Of a stretch of DNA of 34,775 bases, positions 1,642 to 34,775 are shown in pieces (positions within the stretch are counted from its first letter, which is position 1; each line of letters begins with the position of its first letter). The stretch covers positions 1 to 34,775 of the forward strand of contig DULZ01000020.1 of assembly GCA_012840125.1 (NCBI GenBank). Reading direction: 5' to 3'. Origin of the DNA: Clostridia bacterium (lineage in GTDB: Bacteria > Bacillota > DULZ01). The notes under the pieces were generated by a model that ran no database searches, was not told the origin of the DNA, and saw nothing but the letters and a program-made list of their open reading frames with translations. The position numbers and the translations under genes are program-made.

Positions 1642-1743
1642 TGCCGGCCTGCCGCAGGGAGCGACCGGTTGTGCAAGTGCTTGCAGGAATTCCATGGCCG
1701 GAGGAGAAATACTGATCATCCAAAGAGGCAGGAGGTTAAATGA

Positions 1744-3228
1744 ATGAGATGCATCAGGAAACAGGTTGTTAGGGTTTTATTGCTTTGCTTGTTCTTAACC
1801 CTGGTGTTTGCGCACGGTGCCTGGGCCGGTGCCGGGGAGGACGAGTTATTACAGGAGATCAAAAGCTATGTGGAAAGGGAATACGTGGGACCGGTCGCTC
1901 CCGAGGTACTGGAGGCCGCTTCCGTTGAAGAACTGTTTCAAAAATTAGGAGATCCCCACAGCGGCTACATGACCCCGGAAGAATTTGAAAACTTTAAGAT
2001 TGCTTCGGCGCAGGAATACGCCGGGGTAGGTATGCAGCTGGAACAGGGCGAGGAATACGTGGTGGTGGTGAAGGTCTTTCCCAACACACCGGCGGAGCGA
2101 GTAGGTGTACAGCCGGGGGATGAGATCAGGGCCATCAACGGGGAGGATATGAAAGGCCGCTCCCTGGAAGAAGTGGCCGCTTTAATCAGGGGTAAGGCCG
2201 GCACGGCGGTGCTCATTGAATTTGCCCGCCAGGGGGTCGCCGAGCCCATGATCGTGTCCGTCACCAGGGAAAACATCCATTTAGAGGTGGTTCATGCTGA
2301 ACTCAAGGAGGAAGGTATCGGTTACATAAAACTGGACACTTTTACCCCCACGGCCGGGGCGGAATTTGATGAGGCCGTGGCAGAGCTGGAAAACCTGGGG
2401 ATGCGGGGGCTGATTATTGACCTGAGGCAAAACTCCGGCGGGTATTTGAATGCCGCCCTGGATATCGGCGCCAATTTCGCCGGTGTCGGAGAGCCTCTTT
2501 TACACGTGGTGGGGCGGGATAATAAGACCGTGTCTTATCAATCCCTCACCAAAGCCGCTGAGCTACCGGTGGTAGTGCTGGTGGACGATAAGAGTGCCAG
2601 CGCTTCGGAGATCGTCTCAGGCATTATCCGGGACACCGGGGCAGGCATCCTGGTTGGCACCAAGACTTACGGCAAGGCTTCCGTGCAAACGGTTTTCACC
2701 CTGTCCAACGGGGGCGGGCTGAAGCTTACCACCGCCCGTTATTTGACACCGAAAAAATATGATATCAACGGGGTGGGACTGGTGCCCGACCAGGTGGAGG
2801 AAGATGAAGCCAAGCAGTTGGAAAAGGCCATCGCCTATTTACGGGAACAAATCAAGAAGCTGCCCCGCCATGAACTGGTGATCAAAGGGGAACAGGTTTT
2901 ATGGAACGGGAAGGACATTGATCTGGCGCCGGCCCCTTATACAGCCGGGGGGCAGCTCTTGGTGCCTTTAAGAGCGGTGGGAGAACTTTTCGGCTTCACC
3001 GTGACCTGGGATGGAACAAATAACCAGGTTGTGGCGTCTATAGGAGATAAGGAGCTGCAAATGCGGCCGGAGGGGGGCGAGGTGGTGATCAACGGGCAGG
3101 TGCACCGGCTCACGGGGCCTGTCATGTACCAGGGGAACGCCTTCATTCCCATCCACCTGCTGGCGGATTTCTTGGATGCCAGCTGTGATTATGACGGGAA
3201 AACCGGGGCGGTGACTTTCCGGTTCTAG
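1744..3228 (+). CDS. Secreted S41 C-terminal processing peptidase with stalk domain
   Basis: A 494-residue exported serine protease of the CtpA/CtpB family. A signal peptide ending in an Ala-rich site (residues 1-28) is followed by an N-terminal helical part and a PDZ domain (~85-175, including YAGVGMQLEQ and VQPGDEIRAING). The S41 core follows (~180-350). The catalytic set is visible: Ser286 in SASASEI, Lys311 and Gln315 in TYGKASVQ. The 25- and 4-residue spacings equal those of B. subtilis CtpB. The last ~120 residues are a copper-amine-oxidase-N-like 'stalk' domain (LLVPLRAVGELFGFTVTWD...), a wall-associated module common in Clostridia. AGGAGG precedes the ATG. No strong own promoter is visible in the 102-bp gap, so it may be read through from 984. 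In sporulating relatives such proteases activate spore or envelope regulators, but the substrate here is unknown. Confidence 0.9.
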   Translation: MRCIRKQVVRVLLLCLFLTLVFAHGAWAGAGEDELLQEIKSYVEREYVGPVAPEVLEAASVEELFQKLGDPHSGYMTPEEFENFKIASAQEYAGVGMQLEQGEEYVVVVKVFPNTPAERVGVQPGDEIRAINGEDMKGRSLEEVAALIRGKAGTAVLIEFARQGVAEPMIVSVTRENIHLEVVHAELKEEGIGYIKLDTFTPTAGAEFDEAVAELENLGMRGLIIDLRQNSGGYLNAALDIGANFAGVGEPLLHVVGRDNKTVSYQSLTKAAELPVVVLVDDKSASASEIVSGIIRDTGAGILVGTKTYGKASVQTVFTLSNGGGLKLTTARYLTPKKYDINGVGLVPDQVEEDEAKQLEKAIAYLREQIKKLPRHELVIKGEQVLWNGKDIDLAPAPYTAGGQLLVPLRAVGELFGFTVTWDGTNNQVVASIGDKELQMRPEGGEVVINGQVHRLTGPVMYQGNAFIPIHLLADFLDASCDYDGKTGAVTFRF

Positions 3229-3306
3229 GCAGCAATTTTTTGCAGAATATCCCTCGAAAGACAGGATTTATGTCCGTGTCAATCGAATTTAAGGGAAAAC
3301 TGCCGG

Positions 3307-5367
3307 ATGAAGAAAGGGGTAGAGGAAGTGCGAGGAAGAAAACCGATTGCGGCGGCGCTCATGATGTTTTTCTTGCTTAGCCTGGCGTCCCCCGCGGCAG
3401 CAGCACCCTTCAAGGATGTGGCAACCAATCACTGGGCTTACCGTGATGTGATGAAAATGTATGCCAAAGGGGTGGTGGCCGGGTACGGGGAGGAGTATCG
3501 TCCCAATGAGTCTATTTCCCGGGAGCAAACGGTGGTGATGCTGATCCGGGCCCTCGGTTTGGCAGGAGAAGCCCAAAGCGAGACTTTTCCGGCCAATTTC
3601 CGGAATCCTGAAGCCATCAGCAAGGATTTCCGCGCGATGATTGCTTTGGCGGTAAACAAAGGGATCGTGGCCGGCCCCGATGTGCTGGACTTCCGTCCCA
3701 GGGATCCGGCGAAAAGATACGAAATAGCCGTCTTTATTGCCCGGGCCATGGGTTTTGACGGGACTGTTTCCGGCAGTATTGTGCTTCCGTTTACCGACAC
3801 CAAACTGCTAAATGATCAGGCCGCTTGGGCCGTTCCTTATGTCGCTTATGTTTACAACCAAGGGATTATGGCCGGCGATGCCGGCGGTGCTTTCCGGCCC
3901 CTGGACCAGGTGACGCGGGCGGAAATGGCCGTTCTCCTGTCCCGGGTCGATGCCAAAGTGATGAAGCTGACCGGTAATACCATTAGGGGAGAAGCCTACT
4001 CCGTCAGCCCGTTAGCTAATTCCATCCTGGTGCAGGACGGGACGGGCCAGATTGTCACAGTGCCCGTGTCGACGGAGGCTGCCATCTTCAAAAACAAGCA
4101 GCCGGTTTCATTGCAGGAATTGCGGAAGGGCGATAAGCTGGAGGTCATTAAAAACTCTCAGGGACAAGCCGTCTACGTGGAAGTGATTCCCGCGGAAGAG
4201 TTTAGTTATCATGAAGCGGAAGTGACCGGTACCATTGAAACGGTGACGAAAAGCGGTACCGTCTCTATTTCTGTGCGGACTGCCACCGGCCTATCCACTT
4301 ATATACTGGACAGCAATGTCCAGGTGACCGTGGACGGGCTGGCGGCAAGCGTGCAGGATATTTTGGCCGGCCAAGAAGTGAAACTGGTGGTGCGCGGCTC
4401 CACCGTCGTCAAAGTGGAGAGCCGCAATGTGGCCAGGGAAGTAACGGGGGAACTGGTATCCGTCAATACCGGGCTGTATCCCCAGGTGACCCTCCTGGAC
4501 AGCCGGAATAACCGGGTCACTTACAGTCTCCGCAGCGATGGGCGGGTGTACCTGGACAATGCTCCGGCGGATCTGGATGCCCTGGTGCCCGGCCAGCAGG
4601 TCAAAGCCCTGGTGGCAGGACAGGAAATCATCCAACTCTGGGCGGAGAGCTTTTCCAGTCAAGTAACGGGTACCCTGGTGAGGGCGGAATATGCCCCGAC
4701 CGGCAGGGTTACAGTGCAGGTGGAAACGGCAAAAGGCGAGTTGAGGGAACAGACTTTTGAAGTGGCTGCCAATGCCCGGATCCGGCGGGACGGCCGCAGT
4801 GCCACCCTGCGGGATTTGATTCCCGGGGATGAGGTGGAGTTGGAACTCCAGAACAACCAAGTGGTAACCCTCTATGCCGAGACGGTGGAAGTCAGGACGG
4901 AGGGGCGGATCGTCGCCATTACCCTTTCCTATAATCCCACCCTGACGATCATTGATCCTAAAGGCCAAGAGCGGACCTTCACCGTGGCCTCCGATGCCAG
5001 GTTAAGAAGAGACCGGGAAAGGATTGACCTCACTGACCTAGCCGTGGACGATTATGTCACCATCCGCGCTGAGGGACGAGCCATTGTGGACTTGCGGGCT
5101 GAAGACCGGGTGGTCAATGATTACCTCATCGGCACCATCAAAGAAATCAAAGGACGTGAAAAAGTCCTGGTCTTGGAGGACCTGGAGGAAAACAGCCGCT
5201 TCGGCCTGGGGGTCTATGTGGACGACCGGAACACCATCATTATCAAGTTTGGTTGGGAAAGTGACCTGGATGACCTAGCCGTGGGAGACCGGATTTTTGT
5301 GGTGGGCAGGGCGGACAGCTATCGCTTCCTCGCCGAAACCATCGTGGTCATCAGCGGTGCGAGGTAA
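3307..5367 (+). CDS. SLH-domain surface protein with six tandem beta repeats
   Basis: A 686-residue exported protein. A signal peptide (to about residue 33, ending SPAAAA) is followed by three S-layer homology domains (~34-85, 97-150, 161-216), each with the F-x-D-x-x-x-x-W/A-A...G-x-x-x-G...F-x-P...R-x-E-x-A pattern. SLH domains hold proteins to the pyruvylated secondary wall polymer. The remaining ~460 residues are about six repeats of 70-78 residues. Each begins 'G-x-I/L/V-x-x-V', has a 'T/L-Y-x-L/V' strand pair, an 'L-x-x-L-x-x-G-D/Q-x-V' turn and a closing 'V-x-x-I/L-x-A-E' strand. I do not know a function for the repeat; it looks like a spacer or carbohydrate-facing module. ATG 3307 is used; GTG 3328 would also leave a normal signal peptide. 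A strong terminator follows at 5386. Confidence 0.85.
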   Translation: MKKGVEEVRGRKPIAAALMMFFLLSLASPAAAAPFKDVATNHWAYRDVMKMYAKGVVAGYGEEYRPNESISREQTVVMLIRALGLAGEAQSETFPANFRNPEAISKDFRAMIALAVNKGIVAGPDVLDFRPRDPAKRYEIAVFIARAMGFDGTVSGSIVLPFTDTKLLNDQAAWAVPYVAYVYNQGIMAGDAGGAFRPLDQVTRAEMAVLLSRVDAKVMKLTGNTIRGEAYSVSPLANSILVQDGTGQIVTVPVSTEAAIFKNKQPVSLQELRKGDKLEVIKNSQGQAVYVEVIPAEEFSYHEAEVTGTIETVTKSGTVSISVRTATGLSTYILDSNVQVTVDGLAASVQDILAGQEVKLVVRGSTVVKVESRNVAREVTGELVSVNTGLYPQVTLLDSRNNRVTYSLRSDGRVYLDNAPADLDALVPGQQVKALVAGQEIIQLWAESFSSQVTGTLVRAEYAPTGRVTVQVETAKGELREQTFEVAANARIRRDGRSATLRDLIPGDEVELELQNNQVVTLYAETVEVRTEGRIVAITLSYNPTLTIIDPKGQERTFTVASDARLRRDRERIDLTDLAVDDYVTIRAEGRAIVDLRAEDRVVNDYLIGTIKEIKGREKVLVLEDLEENSRFGLGVYVDDRNTIIIKFGWESDLDDLAVGDRIFVVGRADSYRFLAETIVVISGAR

Positions 5368-11638: not shown

Positions 11639-11674
11639 AAGGACACAGGGGGAACACACTTCTGTGTCCTTTCT
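11639..11674 (+). terminator. Terminator of the RND operon, GACACAGGGGGA-type
   Basis: AAGGACACAG (11639-11648), a 13-nt loop starting GGGGA and ending CTT, CTGTGTCCTT (11662-11671) and TTTCT. Its stem and loop frame match the terminator at 24392, so the two belong to one repeat family. Confidence 0.8.
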
Positions 11675-11745
11675 AGTGTTGAGGGGGAACAAACCGGGGC
11701 CGTTCTCCGTCAGAAATGTTATGGCTAAGAAGGGAGAGTGCGTTC

Positions 11746-24391: not shown

Positions 24392-24425
24392 GACACAGGG
24401 GGATAATTCTTCTGTGTCATTTTTA
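24392..24425 (+). terminator. Terminator of the tagO-SH3b unit, GACACAGGGGGA-type
   Basis: GACACAG (24392-24398), a 13-nt loop starting GGGGA and ending CTT, CTGTGTC (24412-24418), then ATTTTTAT. It shares its stem and loop frame with the terminator at 11639. Confidence 0.8.
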
Positions 24426-24466
24426 TTGCCGGCATCGACTGCCGCAAATACCACGATCGTTCCGGT

Positions 24467-24717
24467 TTCAGACTGTAGACAAAAGAGCGTTCGGTGCTAA
24501 TCCCAGGGCTGGGGAGCGAGGGAGCCCTTAACGGTAGTCAGTCATCAGGCGGCGGGCGTCGGGATGTGTTTCTATTGCCCCTAGGCATAGACCGCCAGGC
24601 CTATTAAAACCCGAAAGGATGACATGCACGCCTGACGACTGGCGGCTGAAGTCTGGTGAACGTGGTTGGCTCATCCCCAAATAGGGCTCCTTGCAGCCGG
24701 CAATTAACACCGAACGC
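24467..24717 (+). repeat. Dispersed structured RNA-like element, copy 1 (complete)
   Basis: This fills most of the gap between the SH3b gene and cinA. It starts with TTCAGACTGTAGACAAAA (24467-24484). An outer 15-bp stem follows: GCGTTCGGTGCTAAT (24487-24501) pairs with ATTAACACCGAACGC (24703-24717), one mismatch. Nested inside are GGCTG (24507-24511) with CAGCC (24694-24698) and GGAGC (24513-24517) with GCTCC (24686-24690). GAGCC (24522-24526) pairs with GGCTC (24668-24672). The central arm is AGTCATCAGGCG (24540-24551) with CGCCTGACGACT (24629-24640), one mismatch. A 12-nt block (24514-24525) and a 27-nt block (24669-24695) are identical in copy 2 at 34607. The bases between it and cinA (24718-24839) hold a small AAACC-GCCG-GGTTT hairpin and no gene. 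I do not recognise an Rfam family. Confidence 0.75.
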
Positions 24718-24839
24718 CAGAGGAGCAGTTTATTAACAAGCTGCGACCGTTCCGGTCTTGATGAAACCGCCGGGTTTGGTTTGCTCTGCCGGAGCGGCCC
24801 GGCATGCATGAGAAAAAGCCGTGAGAAAGGAGATCCAAA

Positions 24840-34580: not shown

Positions 34581-34606
34581 CGTCAAAGACCCCTTATTTC
34601 GAAGTC

Positions 34607-34775
34607 TTCAGACTGTAGACAAAAATGTGTTCGGTGTTAATCGCAAGGCTGCATGGGAGCAAAAATCAAAAGAGCGAGGGAGCTCGAGGAAGAACGCCGA
34701 CCTCTGAGCACCTTAAGGTGCGAATGGGAGGCGTCCGAGAGCGACCGAGCTCATCCCCAAATAGGGCTCCTTGCA
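34607..34775 (+). repeat. Dispersed structured RNA-like element, copy 2 (cut by the window end)
   Basis: It opens with the same 18-nt box TTCAGACTGTAGACAAAA (34607-34624). The left outer arm follows, GTTCGGTGTTAAT (34629-34641). GAGCGAGGGAGC (34672-34683) and the 27-nt block 34749-34775 are identical to copy 1. Between these the sequence is unrelated to copy 1 but again pairs: AGCTCG (34681-34686) with CGAGCT (34746-34751), ACGCC (34694-34698) with GGCGT (34730-34734), and GCACC-TTAA-GGTGC (34708-34721). The right outer arm should lie within about 25 nt beyond the window. Confidence 0.75.

Follow-up and report, generated by a model that had tools for sequence, protein, structure and literature searches.

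The window analyzed here is a 34,775-nucleotide stretch of Clostridia bacterium DNA (contig DULZ01000020.1 of assembly GCA_012840125.1) that carries two intergenic copies of a dispersed element, one in the region of position 24467 (copy 1) and one in the region of position 34607 (copy 2). We interpret it as a mobile, non-coding element resembling a miniature inverted-repeat transposable element (MITE) in which the RNA fold is the selected part, and which would have spread selfishly, mobilized in trans. We assign this interpretation a probability of about 60%. The conserved core is, on the comparative evidence, a structured RNA of roughly 165 nt, and the RNA family is undescribed and absent from Rfam 15.

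Fold and distribution of the RNA

Homologues were sought in 398 genomes of the phylum using two covariance models. Model R1 was derived from 34 copies belonging to the window's family (genomes G000–G002, where G000 is the window genome), and model R2 drew on 41 sequences, all from other families (alignment A6). When all families were aligned by sequence alone with MAFFT, the outer stems were misplaced and the consensus was poor, so a model-fitted alignment was adopted. The A6 sequences were aligned to a model of the window's family alone. Of the A6 cells, 88.3% are paired compared to 60% after shuffling, and 39 of the 45 base pairs exhibit double compensatory changes. The covariation score reaches 0.591 compared to 0.155 ± 0.009 for shuffled data; fitting the alignment to the structure inflates these figures somewhat. 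The score falls to 0.06-0.08 when the pairing partners are slid by 1-3 columns. The compensatory changes thus go beyond both the column-composition and the register controls, as in a structured RNA family. An earlier note on this DNA, made from its letters alone, had read the two copies as a folded RNA in which conserved blocks surround variable stems and had proposed a covariation check; the strong covariation and the conservation across families uphold that reading.

The RNA consists of a closing stem P1, two inner stems, an A-rich strand AATCAAAA, and an arm of the form GAGC-GA..GA-GCTC that ends in an apical hairpin. P1 is long and perfect (about 15-18 bp), and its sequence is free while its pairing is kept, as in the paired double substitutions GTTCGG/CCGAAC, AATCGG/CCGATT, and AACCGG/CCGGTT. 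This stem is nearly ungapped in A6, with double changes in 10 of 11 pairs and 96% of positions paired. The P4-P6 arm is rich in facing GA dinucleotides that form GA-rich internal loops, and its capping hairpin is swapped in some copies. The GARC/GYTC motifs (pairs 52-55 x 213-216 of A6) are present in all 41 other-family sequences. Among the copies of G001, the motifs GAATT, CAAAATCAAAA, GA, ATCC, and TCTGA vary in 0-2% of cells compared to 15-28% for other loops. The unpaired bases of the plus strand are A/G-rich. These data provide good support for a folded single strand, and the strand is likely RNA rather than single-stranded DNA.

Model R1 gave matches in 20 of the 398 genomes, representing ten families. 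Model R2 matched 38 genomes from 24 genera and 17 families. Although R2 was built outside the window's family, it finds copy 2 with 105 bits (E = 2.7e-22), and its best scores reach 129 bits in G000 and 155 bits in G001; it does not detect copy 1. The numbers of RNA-model matches per genome are 77, 32, 18, 11, 10, and so on, down to one or two in some genomes, and counts taken from metagenome-assembled genomes (MAGs) are approximate. In the window genome, which spans 2.47 Mb in 106 contigs, there are 18 matches as well as additional pieces. The covariance search envisaged in the earlier note returned many additional copies from the same genome and its relatives. Two copies are carried by Moorella thermoacetica DSM 521 (G015; chromosome of 2,527,564 bp, PMC4599090), one at 817885-818054, between dapF and dapL, and the other at 752101-752262. 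The few queries run against phage and plasmid collections gave no match. A single copy lies between cysS and thyX on a 2,349,476-bp contig (G299:C1) of a genome that may be Candidatus Desulforudis audaxviator.

The family was compared to the 4227 models of Rfam 15. Neither the window nor the copies from other families matched a model at the gathering threshold, and relaxed-threshold searches of five stretches were also without a match, in line with the earlier note, which had not recognized a known riboswitch, tmRNA, 6S RNA, RNase P, or group II intron domain. The only gathering-level match was an unrelated T-box that adjoins one copy (L054). A group II intron was rejected on the lack of a match to any Rfam intron or Domain V model. 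Our literature search found no description of the element or its RNA.

Organization of the window copies

The blocks that the earlier note had reported in both copies are present. The 18-nt opening box TTCAGACTGTAGACAAAA starts at 24467 and 34607, the 27-nt block GCTCATCCCCAAATAGGGCTCCTTGCA is exact at 24669-24695 and 34749-34775, and the 13-nt arm TTCGGTGyTAATC is common to the two copies with one mismatch between them. The purine block GAGCGAGGGAGC is found in both, and the stem beside it differs between the copies as described. This sharing is far beyond chance because the whole genome carries about 18 to 20 copies or pieces. The features of the two copies are as follows.

24455..24468, plus strand: copy 1 left target-hairpin duplicate GATCGTTCCGGTTT, matching 24745-24759; weak and diverged here, the pattern being statistically supported in sister copies
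24469..24743, plus strand: copy 1 whole element, CAGACTGTAGACAAAA to TTATTAACAAGCTG, with a left end common to other elements
24490..24502, plus strand: copy 1 5' arm of closing stem P1, TTCGGTGCTAATC, pairing with 24703-24715
24492..24712, plus strand: copy 1 RNA match, diverged form (model R1, 35 bits, E = 1.5e-6)
24526..24668 (approximate limits), plus strand: copy 1 swapped apical domain, unrelated to the standard P4-P6 arm, a 142-nt insertion in the model alignment
24669..24695, plus strand: 27-nt block with CATCCCCAAATAGGGCTCC, 3' strands of the inner stems, identical in both copies
24703..24715, plus strand: copy 1 3' arm of closing stem P1
24745..24759, plus strand: copy 1 right target-hairpin duplicate GACCGTTCCGGTCTT
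34586..34608, plus strand: copy 2 left target-hairpin duplicate AAGACCCCTTATTTCGAAGTCTT; the right duplicate is on contig C78
34609..34775, plus strand: copy 2 element, truncated at the end of the contig
34632..34775, plus strand: copy 2 RNA match, standard form with the 3' end missing (R1, 137 bits; R2, 105 bits)
34672..34753, plus strand: GA-rich arm P4-P6 (GAGC-GA...GA-GCTC) with apical hairpin, the most conserved part

The central stem had been described as swapped between the copies. The swap is real, since the apical arm of copy 1 is replaced, but copy 1 is a diverged and atypical member of the family. It keeps the frame of the RNA, but in place of the arm it has approximately 140 unrelated bases, which also seem able to pair. 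This second form has sister copies in G000 and G001. The last 105 nt of copy 2 recur at the start of contig C69 and at the end of contig C78. The window contig (C20) and C78 probably join inside copy 2, because the same terminator hairpin AAGACCCCTTATTTCG precedes copy 2 and continues C78. Two other hairpins of the window, GACACAGGGGGA...TTCTGTGTC at 11642-11678 and 24392-24428, are terminator-like and 81% identical. Each precedes T-rich DNA, and the second lies at the end of the gene immediately upstream of copy 1.

Ends, target hairpins, and carriers

The earlier note had offered a MITE as the alternative to an RNA, and the two readings hold together: the RNA rides in MITE-like elements. These are short, non-coding, and present in many copies, with terminal inverted repeats and duplicated flanks. 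The opening box is a shared block as reported, but in the window lineage it belongs to the transposon end CAGACTGTnGACAAA and not to the RNA. The proposed terminal repeat TTCGGTGTTAAT turned out to be the closing stem P1, which lies just inside the true ends. The right end of the window lineage, TTTGTCAACAAGCTG, is a looser inverted copy of CAGACTGTnGACAAA. The order from the outside in is the duplicated target hairpin, the CAGACTGTnGACAAA end, P1, the inner stems, the A-rich strand, and the arm.

Comparison of the flanks shows that the target hairpin is duplicated. Left and right flanks match in 16 of 33 full copies from the window's family (the similarity equals or exceeds the 99th percentile for mismatched pairs); in most of the 16, the match abuts both element ends. 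The duplicated flank folds as a hairpin in 15 of these copies. A T-run follows the right hairpin in 9/16 and the left hairpin in 0/16, which indicates that the element inserts between the terminator stem and its T-run and that the stem is duplicated. The same arrangement is found in another family, where G116 has AACCCCTTTCGGGGTT on both flanks and the end AGACCGTAGACAAA. Insertion at terminator hairpins without sequence preference is known for IS1272 and TnSha1 of the IS1182 family (PMC4923244), and the hairpin character of the duplicated targets agrees with mobilization of this kind.

The ends change between lineages. In G045 and G363, the RNA lies between other inverted ends, TTAGATTCYGCTGAAAAA, and in G064, G015, and G137, the long P1 is itself the terminal repeat (G001, G002, and G064 are the digester MAGs JAAYOX01, JAAZDD01, and JAAYHE01). 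Conversely, ends of the CAGACTGTnGACAAA type also enclose unrelated interiors or almost nothing. Among Moorella relatives, two species have nothing in the dapF-dapL gap, one has the RNA there, and two have an element that resembles it in its flanks but not in its interior; it is possible that the cassette was replaced in place at this site. The dapF-dapL element of G131 and G236 (L333-L337) shares its site and right flank with the G015 RNA, and its interior is missed by R2.

Several loci display related structures. An unrelated fold-back element with CAGACTGTnGACAAA ends and the interior AAGGCTGATAATGTTTGC... lies between matching terminator hairpins in G001 (L134, L141, and L124), and at L132 and L135 a fold-back element with this interior interrupts the apical hairpin of the RNA element. 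A near-empty remnant in L259 (~130-215; G000:C14) consists of a terminator hairpin, CAGCCTGTTGACAAACTG, a short spacer, and the same hairpin again; L140 has two bare ends joined. Two candidates for larger forms were rejected. The 1.9-kb larger copy at L074 of G001 is an RNA element with an IS110-family-like element inserted in it (1664-3607), which encodes a 406-residue transposase named from its translation. The 3.7-kb TTAGATTCYGCTGAAAAA pair of G045, considered as an autonomous transposon, encloses an ABC transporter operon.

Explanations, known systems, and significance

Genes around the loci were called by a simple open-reading-frame search, and neighbors were named from their translations rather than by a family search. 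No recurrent neighbor protein was detected over 20 loci with flanks of up to 4 kb, and a linked-gene hypothesis was rejected on this result. Orientation relative to the neighbors is mixed in families f1 and f56. Among co-directional sites, f44 has six sense and no antisense copies. In f22, six copies are antisense and none is sense. The copies of f14 (Moorella relatives) lie inside operons, for example pheS-pheT, argF-argG, and leuC-leuD, and also between dapF and dapL, often with a ribosome-binding site close behind. A riboswitch or cis-regulatory leader was rejected, as the genes are unrelated, the orientation differs by lineage, and the sense bias is confined to some families. Copies of one genus in G236 and G307 (L303-L306, L321, and L326) share extra flanking sequence, and their right flank has a ribosome-binding site ccagaaccccattttcggaggag before the next gene. 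The RNA lies within ~2 kb of wecA in three genomes (L267, L268, and the window) at differing positions with csaB nearby, which may be chance.

Mobility is supported by the duplicated target hairpins, the differing ends among lineages, and the lack of an insertion at the orthologous site in two species. The element carries no gene, and host transposases acting on its ends presumably move it in trans. In the window lineage, it enters between the terminator stem-loop and the T-run and duplicates the stem-loop, as would a hairpin-targeting transposase of the IS1182 kind. Since the stem-loop is duplicated on insertion, the host gene would retain its terminator, and the element would be read through within the 3' untranslated RNA. 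We infer that the element is transcribed, that its mover is IS1182-like, and that the main role of the RNA is to aid the spread or tolerance of the element itself and not to serve one host gene.

Several observations weigh against this interpretation. We did not find an autonomous transposon whose ends match these exactly. IS1182 transposases are scarce in these genomes, and the near-complete IS1182 element of G002 has only GGCAGACTGT in common at its ends. IS1272 cuts blunt, without target duplication, and deletes part of the hairpin, whereas the element here duplicates the hairpin and lacks a transposase (PMC4923244). The excess of G-U over A-C pairs is weak (30 versus 18 in other families and 22 versus 14 within G001), which leaves some room for selection on single-stranded DNA. 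Of the 13 copies in f14, 10 are sense-oriented and flanked by co-directional genes, as a cis role would have it.

The RNA could instead be a trans-acting small RNA that serves the host by binding a protein or target, its genes having multiplied through pick-up by MITEs. The deep conservation of structure and loops, the retention of one or two copies in some genomes, the lack of a linked gene, and the differing carriers around one RNA all fit this idea, and it is a credible if unlikely alternative. Against it, the RNA is absent from ~90% of the sampled genomes of the phylum, reaches as many as 77 copies in one of them, and is patchy at one site even within a genus. We also think it unlikely that selection acts on the DNA, with a transposase recognizing the folded single strand or a cruciform and the RNA being incidental. 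The terminal palindromes are perfect in every lineage, the targets are themselves hairpins, and the weak G-U excess is consistent with such selection. In contrast, the conserved loops are asymmetric and purine-rich, the GA-rich internal loops occur in 41/41 outside sequences, and conservation extends over lineages with different ends and presumably different transposases.

The sense copies of the Moorella relatives and their ribosome-binding sites, together with the position of window-lineage copies ahead of terminators, would suit a cis-acting mRNA element, in a 3' untranslated region or within an operon, that tunes its neighbor through stability, processing, or antitermination. This role is doubtful given that the neighboring genes have no common pathway, synteny is not conserved, and orientation is opposite in f22 and mixed in two other families. 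The RNA is also mobile, structured, and multicopy, with swappable loops or arms and often no enzyme gene beside it, as would be seen if it were the guide or bridge of an RNA-guided enzyme encoded at another locus. We consider this improbable: no nuclease or recombinase gene recurs beside the copies at the 20 loci, the closing stem pairs both ends and leaves no free guide, there is no match to the HEARO family of Rfam, and the single IS110 element seen was inserted in just one of the copies. If the element were simply a decaying MITE, with inverted repeats that resemble an RNA by chance, its transposon ends and target duplications would be accounted for; the cross-family covariation, the reciprocal detection by the models, and the near-zero change in specific loops among copies contradict this view and make it very improbable.

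HEARO, the omega RNA of IscB (Rfam RF02033), and other transposon-linked RNAs are likewise structured RNAs on mobile elements, with many copies and often without a protein gene. Unlike these, the RNA here is paired at both ends by its long closing stem, the copies have no recurrent HNH or TnpB neighbor, and there is no Rfam match. The bridge RNA (seekRNA) of IS110 elements is similar in being an RNA with internal loops in a mobile element, but the copies here have no linked IS110 gene, and the target hairpin is duplicated in the window lineage; IS110 is not known to duplicate a target hairpin. BOX and RUP of pneumococcus and Correia/NEMIS of Neisseria are small, dispersed, transcribable fold-back elements that are moved in trans, like the element here. 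These are known only from a few species, whereas here one RNA structure extends across 17 families with changing ends.

These data identify a large and well-supported structured RNA family beyond Rfam 15 that is present in at least 17 families. Because it occurs in the cultured model acetogen Moorella thermoacetica DSM 521, its expression and function are testable at once. Duplication of the terminator hairpin would be a low-harm mode of insertion that leaves the host gene with a terminator and places the element in a transcript. The pattern is unusual for MITEs: it is the inside that is conserved across the phylum and the ends that vary, and one may ask how the RNA benefits the element. A more speculative and rather unlikely extension is an RNA-level parasite that persists across the phylum by boarding unrelated transposon ends and swapping its apical arm, and that needs its fold to spread, a bacterial counterpart of the logic of short interspersed nuclear elements. 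If this were true, the fold itself might serve as a recognized or guiding RNA.
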